A program made the translations under genes and the position numbers. From an uncultured Alistipes sp. (GTDB lineage Bacteria > Bacteroidota > Bacteroidia > Bacteroidales > Rikenellaceae), in the NCBI RefSeq assembly GCF_963931675.1, contig NZ_OZ007039.1, forward strand, positions 2,083,806-2,147,805: 64,000 bases of DNA, written 5' to 3'. How positions within the stretch are numbered: position 1 is the stretch's first letter; every line of letters starts with the position of its first letter. Positions 33,578-43,651 of this stretch are shown here, one piece after another. Below the pieces are notes generated by a model that made no database searches, was not told the origin of the DNA, and saw only the letters and a program-made list of their open reading frames with translations.

Positions 33578-33621
33578 AAAAAAGCAGCGCTTCGGATTTC
33601 TTTCCGAAGCGCTGCTTTTTT
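33578..33621. terminator. Strong bidirectional terminator
   Basis: Perfect 19-bp arms (33578-33596 and 33603-33621; core GCAGCGCTTCGGA / TCCGAAGCGCTGC) with A and T runs at the ends. It serves the lytic transglycosylase gene on the plus strand and the seven-gene lipoprotein operon on the minus strand. Confidence 0.95.
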
Positions 33622-33664: not shown

Positions 33665-35416
33665 CTATTGGATGGGTGTGTAGAGGAGTTCGAAGTCGTC
33701 GACCCACATGATGCTCTGGGCACTGCCGATGAAGTAGTCTCCCCATCGTGAGGCCGAGCAGACCACCATAATATGGGTAGGCTTCTTATCTGTCGAGGTG
33801 TATTCGATCGGGATGGTGATTTGGGTCCACTCGCCGACGCTCTCCTTGAAGATGTACTCGCCATAGCCGATGACGTCCTCGCCCTTCGGATTGAAGAAGG
33901 TCTTCACGTCGCGCGTGTCGATGCTCACCGGGCAGGAATCCGAACCGAAGGGCTGTCCGCCATTCTTGTCATTGCCGGCTCCGTCCTTGCCCATGCCGTA
34001 CTTCTCCTTGGTCCAGGTTCCGAGTGCGATGTAGATCGAACCGTTGTCCGGATCGCCTTTCTGGAGGTTCTCCCCGGCGGGCTGTGTGGTACCTACCGAG
34101 GAGATACTGCCGCAACTGTATTTCGCCCAGACGCGCAGGGCCGTAGGCCGCAATGTGAAGGGGCGCCCGAAATTCACGATTCCGTTCGTGCCCACGGTGG
34201 CGGCGAACTCTCCCGTGAAGATGTTTCCGGCGGCCAGTTTGATTCCCAGCACGTTGGTGCTTGCGAGTTTGGCCGATTTCGTTCCCGTGGAGCCGGGCCG
34301 GACGGTCGTCTCATCGGGGGTTGTGACGTTGTCCTTGTCGCTGATGGTCGTCGAGCCGTTGTTACCCGTGGCCCAGAAGGGGGAGATCGGCAGCCCTGCT
34401 TCATCCGAGAGATAGGGCAGCCACGGCTTGCCCGGTTTGGACCACTCCTCCAAGCCGTTGTTGGGGAACTGTTGGACTCCTTCGGTGGTAACGGTCGTAG
34501 GGTCGCTCTCGTCGCTGCCGCAGTAGGACTTGAACTGGTAGGTCGTCAGGGGTTCGGCGGTGAAGGCGGCCGAGAAGGTTCCGCCGTCGATCTCCACATC
34601 GGGGACCTCCGACCATTCGCCCTCGGTGCCGACCCGGTAGCGGAAGCCCATCGCCTGCCCGGCAATGCCCGAACCGCGGAGCCAGACGACGCCCGACCAG
34701 GCATCACAGGCCTCGGTCGAGACGGTCTTGTCCGTGGGCAGGATGTAGAGCACCCAGCGTTCGGTGCGTCCGTGGCAGGTGACATCCACGAAGTGGGGGG
34801 TTCCGAGCGTGGGGTCCTCCGCATCGGGCGAACTGTAATCCATGGCCGAGAGCTCCTCCATCGTGGGGGAGTAGGTCGTGGTGACCGTCTCCGTGGAGGC
34901 GGGCCCGAGTTTGAGTTCGGAGATCGTCACCTGGCTGCGGTCGGCATCCTTGGCGACATAGGCCCTGGCGATACGGTTGTCGAGGTCGAATTCCGGGGCT
35001 CCGATCTGTCCTTCGACCTGGAAACTCAGCGGAATGGTCTGCGAGGCGACGATCTGCCAGTCGTAATCCTCGTAGAGCGTCAGGGTGACGTAGAGGGGGG
35101 TGCGCAGGTCGAACGTCCCGGTCACCTCCCGCGAGGACCGGATATTGTCGAGGAAGGTCTGCTGGTCGATGTTCGTATTGTGCGGGGTGACGGAGTAGGT
35201 CACCTCTTCGATGTGTACGTTTTGGATGTCGGTGGCTTCGTCGAGTGCGAGGGTCACCGTGCGGGTTGCCGCGTCGACGCCCTCGAGCGTGAAGCCTTCG
35301 CCCTGCACGTTGTTGATGGCGACCTCCACGGTCGGGTAGGGCAGGTCGTTGTCGATGCACGACATCCCCGGGAGCGTCGCTCCCGCGAGGAGCAGATAGG
35401 CAAGGAGTCGTTTCAT
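33665..35416 (-). CDS. PCMD-domain lipoprotein, last gene of the surface operon
   Basis: A 583-residue lipoprotein (signal ending PGMSC, Cys20). The N-terminal half has Ig-like or beta-sandwich repeats (about 25-310). The C-terminal part (about 315-583) matches the Bacteroidetes PCMD domain (putative carbohydrate metabolism domain): NGLEEWSKPGKPWLPY, SPFWATGNNGSTTI, LAAGNIFTGEF and THIMVVCSASRWGDYF...WVDDFELLY. PCMD folds as a lectin-like jelly roll, so glycan binding is plausible but untested. It follows the second barrel gene after 3 nt and is closed by the 33578 terminator. It shares PCMD with the 37252 protein. Confidence 0.8.
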   Translation of the reverse strand: MKRLLAYLLLAGATLPGMSCIDNDLPYPTVEVAINNVQGEGFTLEGVDAATRTVTLALDEATDIQNVHIEEVTYSVTPHNTNIDQQTFLDNIRSSREVTGTFDLRTPLYVTLTLYEDYDWQIVASQTIPLSFQVEGQIGAPEFDLDNRIARAYVAKDADRSQVTISELKLGPASTETVTTTYSPTMEELSAMDYSSPDAEDPTLGTPHFVDVTCHGRTERWVLYILPTDKTVSTEACDAWSGVVWLRGSGIAGQAMGFRYRVGTEGEWSEVPDVEIDGGTFSAAFTAEPLTTYQFKSYCGSDESDPTTVTTEGVQQFPNNGLEEWSKPGKPWLPYLSDEAGLPISPFWATGNNGSTTISDKDNVTTPDETTVRPGSTGTKSAKLASTNVLGIKLAAGNIFTGEFAATVGTNGIVNFGRPFTLRPTALRVWAKYSCGSISSVGTTQPAGENLQKGDPDNGSIYIALGTWTKEKYGMGKDGAGNDKNGGQPFGSDSCPVSIDTRDVKTFFNPKGEDVIGYGEYIFKESVGEWTQITIPIEYTSTDKKPTHIMVVCSASRWGDYFIGSAQSIMWVDDFELLYTPIQ

Positions 35417-35419
35417 GCG

Positions 35420-36403
35420 TTATTGCTTTTTCTTGTCCCACATATGGATCGTCATACCGATGTTGATGGCCAGGATGTTGAGTTTGAACTTCATCTTCGA
35501 GGCCTCACGGGTTCCGATCTTGTTTCCCAGTTCGTCCTTCTGGGTGACGGAGGTGTACTGTATTCCGCCGAGCCCGAACGAGAGGTTCGCGCAGACATTG
35601 GGGAAGATGTAGACCGCCGCTCCCGGATTAAACGCCAGTTTGAGCTGCGTATTGTCACTGTAGGTCTGTTTTACCTTTCCTTCGGACTCGTAGGCGAATC
35701 TCGACGAACCCTTCGATACCGAGAGCTCGAACTCGGCGAAGAGCCCGAAACGCCCTTTGGGATCGAGTCCGGCGTAGGAGCGGTGGAAGATTCCGAACGA
35801 GTAGTTGTTGCTGTTGAAGTCGAGGTAGGGGATGTTGAGTGAGACGTCGTTGTTTTCGCCCAGGTCGAAGATGGCGCCCTTGTCGAGCGTTCCGCTCATG
35901 TAGTTGTAGCCGAAGCGGACACCCAGACAGCGGTTGTCGCGGTAGAAGTATCCGATGAACGGTTTCACGGTGGCGGCCGTACCGTCGGCATTGATGTTGT
36001 CCAGGATGAGCAGGATATCCGTGTCGTCGCTCGACAGCGTGCCGTAGGAGGCCGTCAGACCCATGATCACCTCACCCTTGTAGGTGAACTTGAGTTTGTT
36101 GATTTCGCGGTCGATGCGTCGGCGGGTGGGCAGGAAGCGTTGTTTCGGGGCCGCTTTGAGCGGAGCGGCAGCAATTGATGCCGACTGCCGGGATTTCTGC
36201 AGAGTGTCCGCCTTTCCGGAAGCGGTCGGCCGGGGAATTGCGCGGTTTGCGGTCGTTGTCGGGGTCTCGTTTTTCCCGGGTTTCTCCGAGGCGGATTCAA
36301 CGGCTTGTGCCGTGACCGGTTGGGTCGGTTTCCCGGGGACGTGCTGCGCCGCTGCCGGAAGTGTCAGGCAGAGCGTAATCAGGATGAGTATGGATCGTTT
36401 CAT
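35420..36403 (-). CDS. Outer-membrane beta-barrel protein, second of a paralogous pair
   Basis: A 327-residue exported protein (signal ending TLPAAAQ). Residues 20-95 are low-complexity and rich in Pro, Ala, Thr and Lys. The rest (about 100-327) looks like a small 8- to 12-strand barrel: KGEVIMGLTASYGTLSSDD, FIGYFYRDNRCLGVRFGYNY, RFGLFAEFELSVSKGSSRFAYE and the ending KFKLNILAINIGMTIHMW. It aligns by eye with the upstream barrel gene over the whole barrel. It lies 12 nt after that gene and 3 nt before the PCMD lipoprotein. Function is unknown; anchoring or export of operon products is a guess. Confidence 0.75.
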   Translation of the reverse strand: MKRSILILITLCLTLPAAAQHVPGKPTQPVTAQAVESASEKPGKNETPTTTANRAIPRPTASGKADTLQKSRQSASIAAAPLKAAPKQRFLPTRRRIDREINKLKFTYKGEVIMGLTASYGTLSSDDTDILLILDNINADGTAATVKPFIGYFYRDNRCLGVRFGYNYMSGTLDKGAIFDLGENNDVSLNIPYLDFNSNNYSFGIFHRSYAGLDPKGRFGLFAEFELSVSKGSSRFAYESEGKVKQTYSDNTQLKLAFNPGAAVYIFPNVCANLSFGLGGIQYTSVTQKDELGNKIGTREASKMKFKLNILAINIGMTIHMWDKKKQ

Positions 36404-36415
36404 GACGTACCGGGT

Positions 36416-37234
36416 TTAGAGATAGAAGGCCATGCCGAGGCCGATCGAGAAGATGTTGACCTTGAAATTCATCTGGCTGAGGTTGCGTTCGCCCACGGTG
36501 ACCTGGTTGTGGACCTGTTCGGAGTGGTTGAACGTGATACCCATCACGCCGACATTTACTTCGACGGCCATGTTGTTCGTGGCGAAGGCGATGATTCCGG
36601 GTGAGATCCCCAGCGAGAGGGTGTATCCCGTTTCGTAGGTTCCCTTCACGGGCGAACCGTTGGCGAAACGGGCTTCGGTTCCGCCTCCTGCGAGCGACAT
36701 TTCGTTGAAGAGTGCGAATCGCTTGCTGCGGCCCAGGGGGATGTACTGCCGCCAGATGGCTGCCACCTGATAGGAGTGCTGCAGGGAGTAGTAGTCCTGG
36801 GCTGCGAGGTTTACGTTGGAGCCTTCATCCCCGAAGTTGATGGCGGCCTTGTCGAGTTTGAGCAGCGAACGCGAGTAGATGAATCTTCCTCCGAGAGCCA
36901 TGTTGTTGCGGACGGCATAGGCGATCATGGGGCTGATCTTGAAGGTATAGCCTTTGGAGTCGATGCCCTCGATGAGCAGGAACTGATAGCTTTTGTTCGA
37001 GTGGGTCGAATAGGAGGCCGTACCGCCGAATACCCACTGGCCTTTCGGGACGAAGAGGTTGTGCGTGTCGGTCAGTCCGCGCCGCTGCCGCATCTCGTTG
37101 ATGGTCAGGGGGCGGTGGACGGCGGAGCTGTCTGCGGCCTGCCGGGCCGGAGCGGGCTCCTGGGCACGTAGCGTGCCGCAGGCTGCCGTAAGGCTCGCTC
37201 CGAGGAGCAGCAGGCGGATGAGTGTTGTGCGCAT
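36416..37234 (-). CDS. Outer-membrane beta-barrel protein, first of a paralogous pair
   Basis: A 272-residue exported protein with a signal sequence (MRTTLIRLLLLGASLTAACG, then RAQEP). Barrel-like strands include QWVFGGTASYSTHSNKSYQ, ISPMIAYAVRNNMALGGRFIYSR, RFALFNEMSLAGGGTEARFANG and the end MNFKVNIFSIGLGMAFYL with terminal Leu after Tyr. The same order of elements occurs in the downstream paralogue, including SMxFKxNIxxIxxGM at the C-terminus. ATG 37234 is chosen because upstream in-frame sequence lies in the previous gene. Gap to the previous gene is 17 nt. Confidence 0.75.
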   Translation of the reverse strand: MRTTLIRLLLLGASLTAACGTLRAQEPAPARQAADSSAVHRPLTINEMRQRRGLTDTHNLFVPKGQWVFGGTASYSTHSNKSYQFLLIEGIDSKGYTFKISPMIAYAVRNNMALGGRFIYSRSLLKLDKAAINFGDEGSNVNLAAQDYYSLQHSYQVAAIWRQYIPLGRSKRFALFNEMSLAGGGTEARFANGSPVKGTYETGYTLSLGISPGIIAFATNNMAVEVNVGVMGITFNHSEQVHNQVTVGERNLSQMNFKVNIFSIGLGMAFYL

Positions 37235-37251
37235 CGTTTTGCCTTTAGTCG

Positions 37252-39399
37252 TTAGTAAACCCACTGGAAGTCGTCGATGTAGAGCCGGTTCGTACTGCAT
37301 CCGTTCATGTAGTCGCCGTACATGTTGGCCGAACACGAAATGACGATCTTACAGGGCTTCGAGGGTTTGGTCTGCTTGACGTAGTAGAAGATTTCGAGCT
37401 CTTTGTCGACCATCTCGTCGCCGGCGGTCGACTCCGTGATCACGAAGCGTCCGTAGCCGATGACCGGGCCTTCGGCCTGGCTCGTCGCCGTGGAGGGGTC
37501 CCACATGCCGCTCGGGGCGCTCATGCCCGAGGAGACGTTGTGCGGGGCGTCCCAGTCGACGATCGCCACGTAGATGATCGCCCGGTCGGGCTGTCCGGCG
37601 GCGATCGGATGGTTGCCGCTTGCGTCCGTGTATTTGGTCATGTCGACCGTCCCGATCGTCGCGTGGTATTTCAGCCGCAGAGCCCGGGGGCGGGCCTGCC
37701 AGTCGTAATCCTTTCCGAACCCGACGGTTCCCTGCGTGGAGGGCTTGACGAAGGTCCCCGAGAAGAGGTTGCCGGCCGCCAGCAGGCCGGCCGCGGTCTG
37801 CGAAGCCAGCAGGGCGCATTTCGAACCGCTTTTCACCTGCTGCGTGCAGAGGCGCGTCAATTGGTCGCCGATGATGGCGCTCATGTAGTTGTTGTTGCCG
37901 CTGCCCCAGAAGGGGGTCGTCTGGTTGTTGATCGTGAAGCAGCTCATCGTACCGTCCTCCATGTCGCCGCCGGGAATGCTCTGGCCCCCTGCGGTGGCGA
38001 ACGACGCGAGGCTCTCCCGTCCGTCGAGCAGCGCCCGGCATTCGTATTCGCCGTCGGCCCGGACGCCCGTTCCGGCCTTCGGCGTGAAGACCGTTAGGCC
38101 GCTCTCGTTGGACGACTCCGTCCATTCGGGGCTGAACGTCGCCGTCCAGGTTTCGCTGCCGGCGTTCGTGCCGGGCAGCTCCTGCCATGCACCCTCCTTG
38201 GTGCGCAGCCCGAAGGTCACCGCCGTGACCGAAGGGTCAAAGACCCGGGCCCGCAGCGTGATGGTGTTGGCCCACAGGTCGTAATCCGCCGTCGAGGGAA
38301 CCAGCACGCCCTGCAAGGCGATGATACACTCCGCGCTGCCGTTTCCGCCGCCGTTGTCCGCGGCTTCGATGTGCAGCGTATGGTCGCCGCCCGCGCATCC
38401 CGTGAAGAAGTCGTCGGAGAGCGTCACCGTGAGGGCGTTCTCGGCCGTCTTCACCACGGCAAGGCCGGCCGTAGGCGTCGAGACGGCTGCCAGCAGATCG
38501 TACGGCTTTTCGTCGAAGGTCAGCGTCGCGGCTGTCGTCGGCTTGACGGTCGTGATCAGGAAGCGCATTTCGCCGCCCTGATACTGCTGCGTTTCGGACA
38601 TCTCGAAACCGTCGCCCTCGATCGTCGGGTCGGGGCTCCAGATGATCGTGTCGTCGAAGTCGTCGGTCGAGTCTTTTACGCGGATTGCCACGGCCTCGAT
38701 GAATCCCGGCAGGTCGGGCGAGTAGCGGAACGTCAACGTATATTTCCCCGGGGTCCGGACGTCGGGAATGGAACCCGTTTTTGTCACCGTTCCGAGCGTG
38801 TTTTGCGTGCCGCTGAAGTGCCACGAAAGGGCATCGGCCCCTTCGTCGAGCGTGAAGTATCCCGTGGCGTCCTCCGTGTAGCGGAGCGTCGAGGCGTCGT
38901 CGGCCCGGCTCTCGTCATAGGCTGCGCCGGGCATCACCCGCACCTCGAAGTTCGTGCCGAAATTTTCGGGAATGGTGCCGTCGAAAACCGCGGCGACAGC
39001 CGCATTCTGCAGGGTGCACCTTACCTCGACGGGGGTATTCACCCCGGGGGTTACGGTAAAGGACTCCTCGCCTTTGTAGAGGCGCTGGGTGAACGAGGCT
39101 GCAACCTCTTCCCCGGCCTCCACCGTCACGCGGTACTCCCCGGCCAGGAGTTCCAGACGCTCCGGAAGGTCCTCCTTTGCGGTGTATTTGCGGATCGGCT
39201 CCCCGTCGCTGTTGTAGAGGTAGACGGTCAGGTGCTCCATCGGATCATAAGCGTCGTCCGCCGCATCCGAACGGGTCGAGACTGTCATCGTGAGGGTTCC
39301 CGAGGCGCCTGGGGCGTCGAGCGGCCGGGAACTCTCCGAGCATCCCGCCACGGCGAGTCCCAGCACCGGGAACAGATATCTGTACAGGCGTTTCATCAT
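37252..39399 (-). CDS. DUF4493-PCMD lipoprotein
   Basis: A 715-residue lipoprotein (signal ending AVAGC, Cys20). An N-terminal DUF4493 region (about 34-130) has GTLTMTVSTRSDAADD and LLAGEYRVTVEAGEEVAASF; a middle run of beta-sandwich repeats follows; the C-terminal PCMD domain (about 460-715) has TTPFWGSGNNNYMSA, LLAAGNLFSGTFV and KIVISCSANMYGDYMNG...LYIDDFQWVY. The TRS at 42-44 resembles a pilin processing site. Its ATG shares one base with the stop of the previous gene (TGATG), so translation is coupled. It combines the two domain types otherwise split in this operon. Confidence 0.8.
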   Translation of the reverse strand: MMKRLYRYLFPVLGLAVAGCSESSRPLDAPGASGTLTMTVSTRSDAADDAYDPMEHLTVYLYNSDGEPIRKYTAKEDLPERLELLAGEYRVTVEAGEEVAASFTQRLYKGEESFTVTPGVNTPVEVRCTLQNAAVAAVFDGTIPENFGTNFEVRVMPGAAYDESRADDASTLRYTEDATGYFTLDEGADALSWHFSGTQNTLGTVTKTGSIPDVRTPGKYTLTFRYSPDLPGFIEAVAIRVKDSTDDFDDTIIWSPDPTIEGDGFEMSETQQYQGGEMRFLITTVKPTTAATLTFDEKPYDLLAAVSTPTAGLAVVKTAENALTVTLSDDFFTGCAGGDHTLHIEAADNGGGNGSAECIIALQGVLVPSTADYDLWANTITLRARVFDPSVTAVTFGLRTKEGAWQELPGTNAGSETWTATFSPEWTESSNESGLTVFTPKAGTGVRADGEYECRALLDGRESLASFATAGGQSIPGGDMEDGTMSCFTINNQTTPFWGSGNNNYMSAIIGDQLTRLCTQQVKSGSKCALLASQTAAGLLAAGNLFSGTFVKPSTQGTVGFGKDYDWQARPRALRLKYHATIGTVDMTKYTDASGNHPIAAGQPDRAIIYVAIVDWDAPHNVSSGMSAPSGMWDPSTATSQAEGPVIGYGRFVITESTAGDEMVDKELEIFYYVKQTKPSKPCKIVISCSANMYGDYMNGCSTNRLYIDDFQWVY

Positions 39400-40766
39400 C
39401 AGTTCTTGGCGGGTTTAACCAAAGTCAGCGTTGTTATGACGTTATGTCCGGCATTGTCGGAGACATCGAGGTGAAACTTGTAAACCACTTCGTCGTTACC
39501 ACCCATTGCCAGAAGCAGTCCGACCAGTTCGGATTTGATTTCGAACTCTACCTGCGTTTGATCCTTGATTTCATCGCCGACGGGCAACAATGCGCCCAGC
39601 GTTTGTCCGAGACCCTCCTCTTTGTTGAGCGTGCAAAGATCCACTCCCGTCTTGAGCGGCTCCAGATTTCCCGTCAGGAGCTCTTCGAGGACTTCGGATT
39701 CGATCCGAACCGTCAGAGACTTGATTCCGCTTTCCGATGCGATGTTGACCAGTACGGGCTTTCCCGCAGTCCCATCGGGATTGGCTTCGAGCGTGTAGGG
39801 TTCGTTGATGTCATGGCCAGCCATCGAGACGGTCAATTCTCCTTCACCGGGCTCTTCGCCTCCGCCCTCCTCATCGAGAATCTCCTCCCAGAGTCCGTCG
39901 GTGCCGTTGACGGTGATCGTGTCGTCGAGCACGAAGTTATCGACCGAAATATCGAATTTGATTTCGCCCTGGTCGGCATAGACGATCACCAGTTCGATTT
40001 TGCGCCACTGCCCGGCCTTGACGCCCGAGATCGTCTTGCTGAAGGTCACATCGCCGCCGTCGGTAAACGAGCCGCTGAGTACGAATTTGAGATCATTGGA
40101 CTCGGCGGCGGGCAGGAAGAAGGCGGCCTGCTGTCCGTCCCAGTACTCCTTCGAGAACTCCAGCGAGGCACTTCCGAGCGAAACGGTGGCTTTCGTCTCG
40201 GCGGTGAGCTGGTCGGCCAGGTCTGCCGAGCAGAGCAGCGTCACCTTGATGTTCTGCAGCGTGCAGACGATCTCCTCTATCGGGGTGGTGGCCCCTTTCG
40301 TAATCGAGAAGGCATAGGTTGTGCCGTAGACCGGGGTGTTCCAGGCCGCAGCCTGGATCTCCTCCGTGCGGTGGGAGCTGACCGTCAGCGTATAGTTGCC
40401 GACCGGCAACTCCTTGGGACCGGCCGCGAGTTCAGCCTGCAACTCCGCATAGGTGCCGTCGAAATGCGAGCTCTGGTCGTCCGTGTTGACGATCCGGACG
40501 AGGTAACCATCCGTATCGATCACCGCACGGGTTGCGGCTTGTGTGGAGGGCGGGGTTTGGGTTTCGTCCTGCGTATCGTCGGGCTGGGTGTCGGTCTCGG
40601 TGTCGTAGATCACGCGCAGACTCATCGCTCCGCTCAGGAAGCCCGTCGTTGCGGAATCGGTCGTTCCGTTCCCCGCGTTTTTGTAGGGGGGCTCCTCGTT
40701 TACGCAGCCCGTCAGCAGGAGGGCGCCCAGACTCAAGGTCGTAAATAATCCGGTAAAGGTTTTCAT
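39399..40766 (-). CDS. DUF4493 lipoprotein
   Basis: A 455-residue lipoprotein (signal ending LLTGC, Cys21). A Thr/Asp/Gln-rich linker (about 55-78, three DTQ-type units) ends in ATRAVIDTDGY, with Arg80 at a position like the pilin processing site. The DUF4493 domain (about 84-270) has YLVRIVNTDDQSS, LPVGNYTLTVSSHRTEEI and VCTLQNIKVTL. The C-terminal part has an acidic Glu/Gly loop followed by a second beta-rich domain. Gap to the preceding gene is 14 nt. Function is unknown; a structural surface subunit is inferred. Confidence 0.75.
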   Translation of the reverse strand: MKTFTGLFTTLSLGALLLTGCVNEEPPYKNAGNGTTDSATTGFLSGAMSLRVIYDTETDTQPDDTQDETQTPPSTQAATRAVIDTDGYLVRIVNTDDQSSHFDGTYAELQAELAAGPKELPVGNYTLTVSSHRTEEIQAAAWNTPVYGTTYAFSITKGATTPIEEIVCTLQNIKVTLLCSADLADQLTAETKATVSLGSASLEFSKEYWDGQQAAFFLPAAESNDLKFVLSGSFTDGGDVTFSKTISGVKAGQWRKIELVIVYADQGEIKFDISVDNFVLDDTITVNGTDGLWEEILDEEGGGEEPGEGELTVSMAGHDINEPYTLEANPDGTAGKPVLVNIASESGIKSLTVRIESEVLEELLTGNLEPLKTGVDLCTLNKEEGLGQTLGALLPVGDEIKDQTQVEFEIKSELVGLLLAMGGNDEVVYKFHLDVSDNAGHNVITTLTLVKPAKN

Positions 40767-40780
40767 ATCTCGTGTCGTTT

Positions 40781-41581
40781 TTATGCGTTGGTTTCCTCTT
40801 CGGCGTTGTCGTTCAGTTCGATGTCGAACGTGCGTTCGTCGAGGAATCCGTCGTCGAGGTTGATCGTCAGCGTGGCGCTGCCGTTGTCGCGGGCGTCGAA
40901 GAGGAACGTGTGGCGCGTGCGTGCGACGGTCTGTTCGAGCGTCTGCTCGGGGAAGGTGTAGCTGCGGTCGAAGGCCGTGCCGGTCTGGCTCTGGATCTTG
41001 GCCGTACCCGTGAGGGTCAGCTTCGAACCGGCCTCGACGAAGACCGCTTCGTCCGCCGTCTCGGCACCGGGCGTGAAGGTAAAGCGGTTCCCGGCCGATG
41101 TCGTGACGGTGAAGGTCGCGTCATGGAAATAGTTCAGAAACGCTTCCGTGGCCGTGACGAGCACCTGTGCATTGGCAATCTGTACGGGAATGGTCTCCTC
41201 GACGCTTTGGCGGGCGACGATTTCGATGTTTTTCGTTCCGTAGTAATAGGGTTTGCCGACCCCCTCGGCCTTTGGATCCCCGTAGGTGAGGGTTGCGGTG
41301 TAGCTCCCGGCCGGAAGCGTTTCGCCCGCGTCGTTGAATGCGGCGAGGCTCTCCCAGGTTTTGGAAAACTCCGTTCCGGAGATCGTGAGGGTGAGTTCCT
41401 CGGCGGTGGGGACCGGCGTGACGGCAATCTCGGCCCGTGTGGTGATCATGGCGTCGGTGCGGCAGGCGATGCGGAGCGTTCCGTATCCGTCGCTGTCCGC
41501 GGGCGTTTCGTTTTCGGAGCATCCTCCGGCTGCTACGGCCGCCGATGCCAGGAGAAGAATCAGTCTGTTTTTCATGTTCAT
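40781..41581 (-). CDS. Small DUF4493 lipoprotein
   Basis: A 266-residue lipoprotein (signal ending AAGGC, Cys21). The N-terminal strand YGTLRIACRTD is followed by ITTRAEIAVTP (Arg49), then the DUF4493 core LTLTISGTEFSKTWESL, LPAGSYTATLTYGDPKAEG, YYYGTKNIEIVARQSVEETIPV and a second half to GSATLTINLDDGFLDERTFDIEL. It contains just the DUF4493 module, with no PCMD, so it is the simplest member of the operon and could be a repeating subunit. Gap to the previous gene is 8 nt. An in-frame ATG two codons in (41575) is also possible. Confidence 0.75.
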   Translation of the reverse strand: MNMKNRLILLLASAAVAAGGCSENETPADSDGYGTLRIACRTDAMITTRAEIAVTPVPTAEELTLTISGTEFSKTWESLAAFNDAGETLPAGSYTATLTYGDPKAEGVGKPYYYGTKNIEIVARQSVEETIPVQIANAQVLVTATEAFLNYFHDATFTVTTSAGNRFTFTPGAETADEAVFVEAGSKLTLTGTAKIQSQTGTAFDRSYTFPEQTLEQTVARTRHTFLFDARDNGSATLTINLDDGFLDERTFDIELNDNAEEETNA

Positions 41582-41589
41582 GGCGGTCG

Positions 41590-43479
41590 TTATTGGGCGA
41601 TTTGCACTTTGATATTGTCAAGGTAGAGCCAGTAGTTGCCGTTGAATCCCGAGAAGGGGGCGGTATCCGTTGTTGAGGAGACCATCCACGAGGCACGGGT
41701 CGTGTTGCTGGCAGAGGGAATGATGAACGAATCCTCGTAGGAGATGTTGTCGTAGTTCTGGTTCTGGTTGCGTTCGGCTCCCGACGTGCCGGGAATCACG
41801 ACATTGTTCTTGAGGAGGTAGGGGATGGTGGTCGATCCCGGCTGCCAGCCCTGTTCGGAGGTGTAGCCGCAACTGTAGATTGCATCGCCGTTTCCGGGGC
41901 CTGCATCGCCGCCAAAGAGTTTCCGCTCGACGGACCAGCGGCCGCCTTTGTAATTGAATGTCACTTTGACCTTAGGGTTCTTGCCCTCTTTCAGCGTGCT
42001 GAACGGGGCCGAATCGAGGCGTGCATTGTAGGTGTTCGACGCGAAGCTCTGGTTTTCGACGCGGGCGCAGATGCGGATAGCCTTTCCGGCTTCGGTGCCG
42101 ACGCGGGCTGCTGTCCAGCCCGGAGTTTTGACTCCCCAGTTGCTCAGGTCAATGGCTGTACCGTCACCATCGGCGATCGTTGTGCCGCCTACGGCCGGGT
42201 TGTCGTAGTTGCTGTTGGTTGTAACTCCCGAAAAATCCTCGTAAAGCAACCAGGGTACACTGAAAGTTTTCACCCGGTTCACGGCTCCGGCAGTTACTGC
42301 CGGCAGGGTGAAGGTTTCGCTCAGAAGGGCATGCTCCGAATCGTACGTCACCTGGAATCCGGCCATCTCCTCCGTGGGGTTCGTGTAGCCCCGGAAGCGA
42401 ACCGTATAGTCGCCCGTACCCGTGACGTCGAACGTACGGCTCTGACTGCCGTCCTCGAAGCTCCAGCCCGAGGGTGCCGTCACCGTGAAGGTGTTGATCG
42501 CCTCGCCCAGCGTGTTGACGCCCGTCTCCGCGAGGGTGAAGATCAGCTGCGTGAGTTGCACTGCCGCGGCCGGGACGTTGTAGTTGATCGGCGTGGTGTG
42601 GCCGGCGGCAAAGGTCCGGCCGGCCGGGGCGAAGGTCCGCTCCTCCGATTCAAGGGCCGAGCTCGACGCTACGATCGAAACCTCCTGACCCTCTTCGAGC
42701 GTGACGGGGGCAATCAGGGCGTAGACCACATCCTCGGCCTCCTTCGGCTCCGAAAAGCGCAGGGTCAGCGTGTTGCTCGACTCGCTCAATTCGGCTGCGG
42801 CGGCGGGGTTGGCGGCATCCACCGTCAGGCGCCCCACAACGGGTGTCGGGAAGGTCAGTTTGATCTCCGAAACCGGTTCTCCGAGGTCGTTGCGCGGGAT
42901 GGCGATTTTCAGTACGTGGATTTTGTGTGCGAATTGCAGGTCGACGACGTCCGTATTGTCGCTGATGCCGTTCGCATCCTTCTTGTCGTGTTCGCGCAGC
43001 GGCCCGGCTCCCTCGATCGGCGTGGCCACCATCACGTCCCACTCGCCGTGGAACGTACCGTCCTGCACGGCCGGGATGTCGTAGCTGGCCCGCAGCCCGT
43101 CGGTCGAGGCCGGAACGGGCGACACGGCGTAATAAGTATAGGTGTCCTCGGCCATCTGCGGGATGTTGCCGCGGAAGTTGGCCGAGTTGTAGGTCGCATT
43201 ATAATGGTAGAGGCTGAAGGCCACGGCGTCGACTACGGTTTGAGCGGCGGAGTTTACGGCCCAGAGTGCGAGTCGGTCGCCTGTCTGCCATTTGACGCTC
43301 ACGCCGTCGTCCCCGAGTTCGGTGCGGGTCGTGGATTGGGGCCGGATGTCGAGTCGCGGACCCGACCCGATGGCCACCTCAATGCTTCTTGTTGCCGGAT
43401 CGGCCGCCTCGTCCGTATTTTTCGAACAGGCGGCGCACAGCAGGGGCAGAAGAAGCAGGGTTGTCCAATGTTTCATCAT
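41590..43479 (-). CDS. Fimbrillin-like (Mfa-like) lipoprotein with C-terminal jelly roll
   Basis: A 629-residue lipoprotein (signal ending LCAAC, Cys18), first gene of the operon. The N-terminal 300 residues resemble the fimbrillin/Mfa-like family: ATRSIEVAIG (Arg31), VSVKWQTGDRLALWAV, FRGNIP, TYTYYAVSPVP and LQFAHKIHVLKIAI. A linker domain (about 310-410) precedes a C-terminal jelly-roll-like region ending FNGNYWLYLDNIKVQIAQ, similar in style to PCMD endings. The size is larger than a normal pilin, so it may be a tip or adhesin. A promoter element is at 43507. Confidence 0.75.
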   Translation of the reverse strand: MMKHWTTLLLLPLLCAACSKNTDEAADPATRSIEVAIGSGPRLDIRPQSTTRTELGDDGVSVKWQTGDRLALWAVNSAAQTVVDAVAFSLYHYNATYNSANFRGNIPQMAEDTYTYYAVSPVPASTDGLRASYDIPAVQDGTFHGEWDVMVATPIEGAGPLREHDKKDANGISDNTDVVDLQFAHKIHVLKIAIPRNDLGEPVSEIKLTFPTPVVGRLTVDAANPAAAAELSESSNTLTLRFSEPKEAEDVVYALIAPVTLEEGQEVSIVASSSALESEERTFAPAGRTFAAGHTTPINYNVPAAAVQLTQLIFTLAETGVNTLGEAINTFTVTAPSGWSFEDGSQSRTFDVTGTGDYTVRFRGYTNPTEEMAGFQVTYDSEHALLSETFTLPAVTAGAVNRVKTFSVPWLLYEDFSGVTTNSNYDNPAVGGTTIADGDGTAIDLSNWGVKTPGWTAARVGTEAGKAIRICARVENQSFASNTYNARLDSAPFSTLKEGKNPKVKVTFNYKGGRWSVERKLFGGDAGPGNGDAIYSCGYTSEQGWQPGSTTIPYLLKNNVVIPGTSGAERNQNQNYDNISYEDSFIIPSASNTTRASWMVSSTTDTAPFSGFNGNYWLYLDNIKVQIAQ

Positions 43480-43506
43480 GCACGAATTCTTTTATCTGAA
43501 TCTCCA

Positions 43507-43537
43507 CAAAAATAGGGTCGGAAGCCGATTTCCCGAA
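43507..43537 (-). promoter_or_regulatory. Promoter of the seven-gene surface operon
   Basis: On the minus strand TATTTTTG (43507-43514) is an exact -7 match, 28 nt before the first ATG; the -33 position holds a weak TTTC (43534-43537) at 19 nt. The terminator of the upstream peptidase gene lies just beyond, so this operon begins here. Confidence 0.5.
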
Positions 43538-43613: not shown

Positions 43614-43651
43614 AAAAGGCCCTCCGACATACATTTGTCGGAGGGCCTTTT
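43614..43651 (-). terminator. Terminator after the S9 peptidase gene
   Basis: Perfect 16-bp arms (43614-43629 and 43636-43651; core GGCCCTCCGACA / TGTCGGAGGGCC) with A and T runs at the ends. Confidence 0.9.

Follow-up and report, generated by a model that had tools for sequence, protein, structure and literature searches.

What might be built by seven exported proteins whose genes lie side by side in a gut bacterium? The question is raised by a stretch of 64,000 nucleotides from an uncultured Alistipes species, below called the window (bases 2083806-2147805 of a genome of 3.38 Mb in a single contig). The genes, g1 to g7, are tightly packed minus-strand open reading frames (ORFs) at 43479-33665 of the window; g1 to g4 encode fimbrillin-like and DUF4493 lipoproteins, g5 and g6 two small barrels, and g7 a lipoprotein with a PCMD domain. 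A first, sequence-only reading took them for an undescribed surface fibre or adhesin system. The analysis reported here shows that the seven genes form one ancient and conserved unit, predicted to lie at the cell surface. The unit is a so far undescribed variation on the theme of FimA-superfamily adhesins, and its mechanism is inferred below. Its probable task is to hold on to sugars or partners in the surroundings.

The barrel pair is found in 35 of the 37 genomes of the genus that were searched, the genome of the window included, and in nearly all of them the two genes lie in tandem; the two genomes without the pair are incomplete assemblies (74% and 85%). All seven genes occur in identical order in 25 distinct Rikenellaceae loci, while two further loci differ only in that no g3 was detected, and the gaps between the genes are at most 60 nt in 84-100% of the cases. 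Seven loci (L043, L047, L050, L051, L056, L064, and L066) differ in having the barrel genes head to head in front of g1, and here g4 and g7 lie only 8-26 nt apart. In the g7 tree this arrangement makes up one clade of six (support 1.0) and one separate lineage, and the barrels have thus moved at least twice, yet stayed linked to the unit. About ten other Bacteroidales families show the order A-B-C-barrel-(barrel)-D, A usually being a single DUF4493 and PCMD fusion that replaces g1 and g2. The flanking genes are unrelated among the loci (a pyridoxal-phosphate enzyme, a UDP-sugar dehydrogenase, an OmpA lipoprotein, a phytase-like gene, and others). One genome splits the unit, with A-B-C at one locus (L113) and the barrels and D at another (L129, 7503-10858). 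Since the order recurs in dozens of genomes, the seven-gene arrangement is far beyond chance. The sequence-only reading had staked its case on the gene order being conserved in other Bacteroidales, and the order is indeed kept across the genus and about ten families.

The barrel family is strongly matched in 17 of 198 Bacteroidales genomes, 16 of which have at least three DUF4493 genes (Fisher 2e-21), and in a sample of 296 genomes from the phylum the only barrel match outside the order lies below the family cut-off. DUF4493 and PCMD are found at no second place in the genome of the window. These data bear on the explanation that the unit is structural, acting in the organisation of the outer membrane or in vesicle formation, with surface domains that are not adhesive. 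A single-copy unit that is near-universal in its genus hints at a core role, and small OmpA-like barrels are often structural. However, the fast divergence (mean column identity 32-37% in the alignments), the variable added domains and the patchy presence in the order (17/198) suit interaction at the surface better, and such an envelope role is considered improbable.

When it comes to the individual proteins, DUF4493 is carried by g2 (41581-40781, 266 residues; PF14900 E 2e-39, 136 bits), g3 (40766-39399, 455 residues; E 1e-34, 121 bits) and g4 (39399-37252, 715 residues; E 4e-39, 135 bits). In g4 it is followed by a middle domain and a PCMD domain (PF13201 E 1e-19, 71 bits), and PCMD is also found in g7 (35416-33665, 583 residues; E 9e-43, 147 bits), the Pfam cut-offs being 27 bits for PF14900 and 28 bits for PF13201. 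The C-terminal domain of g3 is common to the middle of g4 as judged by hhalign. The first gene, g1 (43479-41590), encodes a 629-residue lipoprotein with CSKN after the signal peptide, a fimbrillin-like N-terminal part and a C-terminal domain that may, judged by eye, be a jelly roll. In the Pfam scan of the window proteins g1, g5, and g6 have no match over cut-off, but 13 of 30 g1 orthologs match Mfa_like_1 (PF13149; best E 9.6e-15), so that the label Mfa-like given to g1 on sequence alone is correct. A relationship of g1 to DUF4493 or PCMD was also tried and rejected, hhalign showing little beyond similarity of the signal peptides. Signal peptides and lipid cysteines were assessed by sequence pattern and not by a trained predictor. 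By this test g1, g2, g3, g4, and g7 keep the lipobox in almost every intact ortholog, while the barrels g5 and g6 are non-lipoproteins. The earlier assignment of DUF4493, PCMD, five lipid-cysteine products and two small barrels thus stands. The literature search found no paper on DUF4493, PF14900 or PF13201, and papers elsewhere are possible.

Structure models were built for g2 and g5. The AlphaFold model of g2, made with 26 DUF4493 sequences in the input, has a predicted local distance difference test score (pLDDT) of 76.8 and a predicted template-modelling score (pTM) of 0.71. A fold search with this model gave the fimbrial assembly protein BDI_3522 (Z 9.1, root-mean-square deviation (rmsd) 3.6, 194 aligned residues), followed by the tip Mfa3 (Z 8.4), the anchor Mfa2 (Z 8.3) and the FimA1 and FimA2 prepilins (Z 8.2) among further PDB matches. 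Most of the matches are Bacteroidota fimbrial proteins, aligned across residues 28-251, which is nearly the whole domain. Direct PDB profile searches with g1, the barrels, and g2 gave nothing convincing. Although the Z-scores are modest, the top rows agree and the coverage is that of a full domain, and DUF4493 is therefore likely, as far as the model goes, to have the two-domain FimA/Mfa (type V fimbrillin) fold and to belong to the FimA superfamily.

A basic site of the type [ST][RK] follows the first predicted strand in 36 of 37 g1, 34 of 37 g2, 41 of 45 g3 and 41 of 51 g4 sequences, in g1-g3 mostly 22-58 residues past the lipid cysteine. In g2 of the window it is TR at residues 48-49, and R52 of g1, which looks like a cleavage site, is nearly invariant among the orthologs. 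Windows of the same length further along contain the motif in 1-11 of 37 (g1), 2-9 of 37 (g2) and 3-26 of 45 (g3) sequences. The basic residue of g1-g3 resembles, at the level of sequence, the cleavage site of type V pilins, which are surface lipoproteins cut at this position, in Porphyromonas by Arg-gingipains (PMC5954841). In gut species a surface clostripain is reported to cut such pilins (PMC12632263). The genome encodes a clostripain-family (C11) lipoprotein at about C1:2594336-2595601 (L137, 1204-2469, minus strand), which is a candidate surface protease for processing pilins and lipoproteins. A search for proteases of the gingipain type (C25) gave no match, yet its control also matched nowhere, which makes the search uninformative.

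The pilin-family fold raises the possibility of a true type V pilus, in which g2 would be the repeated stalk, g4 the anchor and g1 and g3 the tips. Of the fimbrillin-type subunits most have a further domain at the C-terminus; g2 alone lacks one and is the sole stalk candidate. Its basic site is kept in 34/37 sequences, and loss of the g4 site in one clade would fit an anchor that is not cut. However, g2 has no equivalent in most other families: outside the Rikenellaceae the first gene is mostly the DUF4493 and PCMD fusion, without a stand-alone DUF4493 pilin. No Mfa2/FimB-type anchor (PF08842) was matched over cut-off among the seven products, g4 reaching E 0.0064, and both PF08842 matches of the genome lie outside the operon. 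Neither DUF3575 nor DUF3868 was matched among the seven products. A complete canonical type V fimbrial locus is moreover found elsewhere in the genome, at C1:1761358-1772884 (L135, 3359-14885), with a DUF3575 barrel, a DUF3868-OmpA-TPR protein, a FimA-like stalk candidate, an Mfa2 anchor and three large tips. A pilus built by the seven genes is for these reasons regarded as quite unlikely. The long fibre of the sequence-only reading, with the fimbrillin-like or the small DUF4493 protein as its subunit, is accordingly not supported, while the part of its claim that makes the seven products one surface complex is borne out, as to a conserved unit, by synteny and co-occurrence, their place on the surface being a prediction.

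The canonical locus also invites the explanation that the operon is a store of alternative tip adhesins to be mounted on that pilus. The subunits are indeed like tip pilins, having a fimbrillin domain, a basic site and a C-terminal binding domain, and a pilus to carry them is encoded at C1:1.76 Mb. The canonical locus has tips of its own, however, and judged by eye it adjoins recombinase- and relaxase-like genes, so that it may be recently acquired or mobile, whereas the operon is old and genus-wide. A tip store would furthermore leave the dedicated barrels without a role, and the idea is rated as very improbable.

These barrels are encoded by g5 (37234-36416), which has a Sec signal, and g6 (36403-35420), which has an N-terminal extension. 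The start of g5 is taken as the ATG at 37234, while its longest ORF begins at a GTG at 37336. The two are paralogues (hhalign probability 100%, about 29% identical). The g5 model (pLDDT 66.6, pTM 0.58, two extra N-terminal residues in the modelled range) resembles small closed outer-membrane barrels, its structural matches being OprF (Z 14.0, rmsd 2.7, 134 aligned residues), OmpA (Z 13.0), NspA (Z 12.9) and OmpW (Z 11.7). OMP_b-brl (PF13505) is matched by 10 of 39 members of the barrel family, best E 1e-4. The g5 model and the paralogy of g6 agree with the earlier suggestion of two small outer-membrane barrels. The barrels are thus of the outer-membrane type; a barrel partner is in itself nothing unusual, since canonical type V loci, that of this genome among them, carry a small DUF3575 barrel of their own. 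The g5/g6 profile gave no detectable alignment with the DUF3575 barrel of the canonical locus, for which a single sequence was used.

The PCMD domain of g7 aligns over its full length with jelly-roll structures of the BT2081 type (E 4e-30 to 4e-25; PDB 4jrl and 3hbz among the matches). In BT2081, Asp259 and Asp338 have been proposed as catalytic, with Asp259 as the nucleophile (PMC2954218). The equivalent of Asp338 is Asp in 51 of 52 sequences for both g7 and g4, while that of Asp259 is variable: Ser in 22 and Gln in 10 of 52 g7 sequences, and Arg, Thr, Lys or Asn in g4. Because the Asp259 equivalent is not conserved, cleavage by the scheme proposed for BT2081 is unlikely, and the PCMD domains are most likely glycan binders and not hydrolases. 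In its N-terminal region g7 has a profile match (E 9e-6) to the chain named DUF4960 in PDB 8a9y, which serves the levan utilisome as its surface glycan-binding protein. Of the proposal that PCMD proteins are glycan-binding tips, the part that makes PCMD a glycan-binding module fits these data.

The same features would fit capture or uptake of glycan outside the Sus paradigm, with PCMD lipoproteins gathering the glycan and the barrels passing or holding it. The work that defined the PCMD family tied its proteins to polysaccharide utilisation loci (PULs; PMC2954218), the N-terminal part of g7 matches DUF4960 of 8a9y, and distant pairs of barrel and PCMD genes exist. On the other side, no SusC/SusD was matched in the operon or in the three adjacent genes scanned, and no glycoside hydrolase was found in the operon by Pfam. 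Among the flanking genes scanned, the sole Sus-like item is a TonB plug protein next to L113, the barrel model is like small closed barrels and unlike transporters, and Asp259 is not conserved. Uptake of this kind is considered unlikely, and the earlier statement that the unit is not a standard PUL agrees with the Pfam scan. The distant pairs (L130, 7067-9052, and L131, 6661-8572) consist of a small barrel gene followed by a PCMD lipoprotein gene, and may represent the core in an earlier form.

Directly after its lipid cysteine g7 has a near-invariant motif, C-x-N-[DT]-x-P-Y-P, in 49 of 54 relatives; the segment is of the type CI[ED]NDIPYP (residues 20-28, window 35333-35359). It is also kept in loci without linked DUF4493 genes and is altered in a few distant relatives. 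It is read here as a putative docking segment for the barrels. By eye, g3 starts in a similar manner after its cysteine, with C-x-[ND]-[ED]-x-x-x-Y.

Taken together, the reading preferred here is that of a conserved outer-surface adhesin complex, tip-like and of fixed composition, with a barrel base. The lipoproteins would be flipped to the cell surface, where g7 would dock on the g5/g6 pair through its post-cysteine segment and thereby make the base. A surface protease of the clostripain type would cut the fimbrillin-fold subunits after the conserved basic residue behind the first strand, and the groove of the FimA fold, opened in this way, would allow strand complementation between partner subunits. 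As most of the fimbrillin-type subunits bear a C-terminal Ig-like (immunoglobulin-like), PCMD or jelly-roll-like domain, the product would be a short, tip-like structure showing several binding domains, with the PCMD domains binding glycan, and not a long polymer. The tip-pilin plan of the subunits, the lack of a recognisable stalk or anchor and the canonical type V locus elsewhere all favour such a complex over a long fibre.

Several observations weigh against this adhesin complex. Fimbrillin Z-scores of 8-9 are not far from values that unrelated folds can reach, even if the agreement among the top rows speaks against chance, and the barrel model of g5 is of moderate confidence only. Basic sites are not rare in the N-termini of lipoproteins (g7 itself has one in 21 of 49 sequences), and that of g4 is lost in one clade. 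Finally, one genome has barrel, barrel and PCMD lipoprotein genes (L128, 9191-12614) and no DUF4493 gene; the barrel part is thus independent of the fimbrillin part in places. With these points counted, the adhesin complex is given about an even chance of being right. A bolder claim, that the unit is a distinct Bacteroidales organelle in which the barrel pair and a PCMD base mount hetero-oligomeric fimbrillin-fold adhesins, and so a separate assembly lineage of the FimA superfamily beside type V pili, is more doubtful and is put forward tentatively.

The seven genes are separated by 8, 14, -1, 17, 12, and 3 nt from g1 to g7, with g5 counted from its ATG, so that the spacing noted before (3-17 nt, or an overlap of 1 nt) is confirmed by the ORF coordinates. 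So is the strong terminator at 33578: an intrinsic terminator on the minus strand at 33578-33615 has a 19-bp hairpin with a T run (-31.9 kcal/mol, z -9.4). A second strong terminator, which had gone unmentioned, belongs to the upstream S9-peptidase gene (43614-43651, no strand assigned; -33.3 kcal/mol, z -8.8), and with its own terminator downstream and this one upstream the operon is isolated at both ends. A Bacteroidales -7 element, TATTTTTG, is present at 43507-43514 on the minus strand, 27 nt upstream of the g1 ATG, as had been reported. The pattern TANNTTTG is common genome-wide, however (1,633 sites in 3.38 Mb, while the reversed control pattern has 1,282), which makes the match alone weak promoter evidence. 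An invertible promoter was considered and rejected, the inverted repeats near the promoter being those of the terminator only.

A single-copy surface locus has thus been defined that is carried by nearly all Alistipes and kept together across Bacteroidales families, and DUF4493 gains a likely fold-level home in the FimA superfamily. Should the complex prove real, it would represent a second way of using fimbrillin folds, a tractable model for the docking of surface lipoproteins at outer-membrane barrels, and a candidate colonisation factor in a gut genus with few characterised ones.

Compared with known systems, the predicted g5 fold is like that of the small barrels NspA, OmpW and the N-terminal domain of OprF/OmpA (Z 11.7-14). 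Unlike OprF/OmpA-type barrels, the window copies lack a significant sequence-family match and a peptidoglycan-binding domain, and they are two adjacent paralogues. The PCMD family (BT2081, PDB 3hbz; 4jrl, 3s30, and 4het) shares its C-terminal domain with g7 and also g4, the Asp338 equivalent being invariant, but in the operon Asp259 is replaced and the domains are either joined to DUF4493 or encoded next to small barrels, not SusC. Sus-type surface glycan-binding proteins (DUF4960, 8a9y) are alike by profile to the N-terminal region of g7, and both are surface lipoproteins, that of g7 by prediction; however, the operon has no SusC/SusD partner and the C-terminal domain of g7 is different. With type V loci the operon shares lipoproteins of the (here predicted) two-domain FimA fold, presumably on the surface here, and a basic site behind their first strand. 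Tip-type subunits have ligand domains added at the C-terminus in both, and both include a gene for a small outer-membrane barrel, which in the canonical locus of this genome is DUF3575. While type V loci have a stalk, an Mfa2/FimB anchor and a DUF3868/OmpA gene, none of which is recognisable in the operon, the operon has a different, tandem barrel family, PCMD domains, and a single conserved copy per genome.

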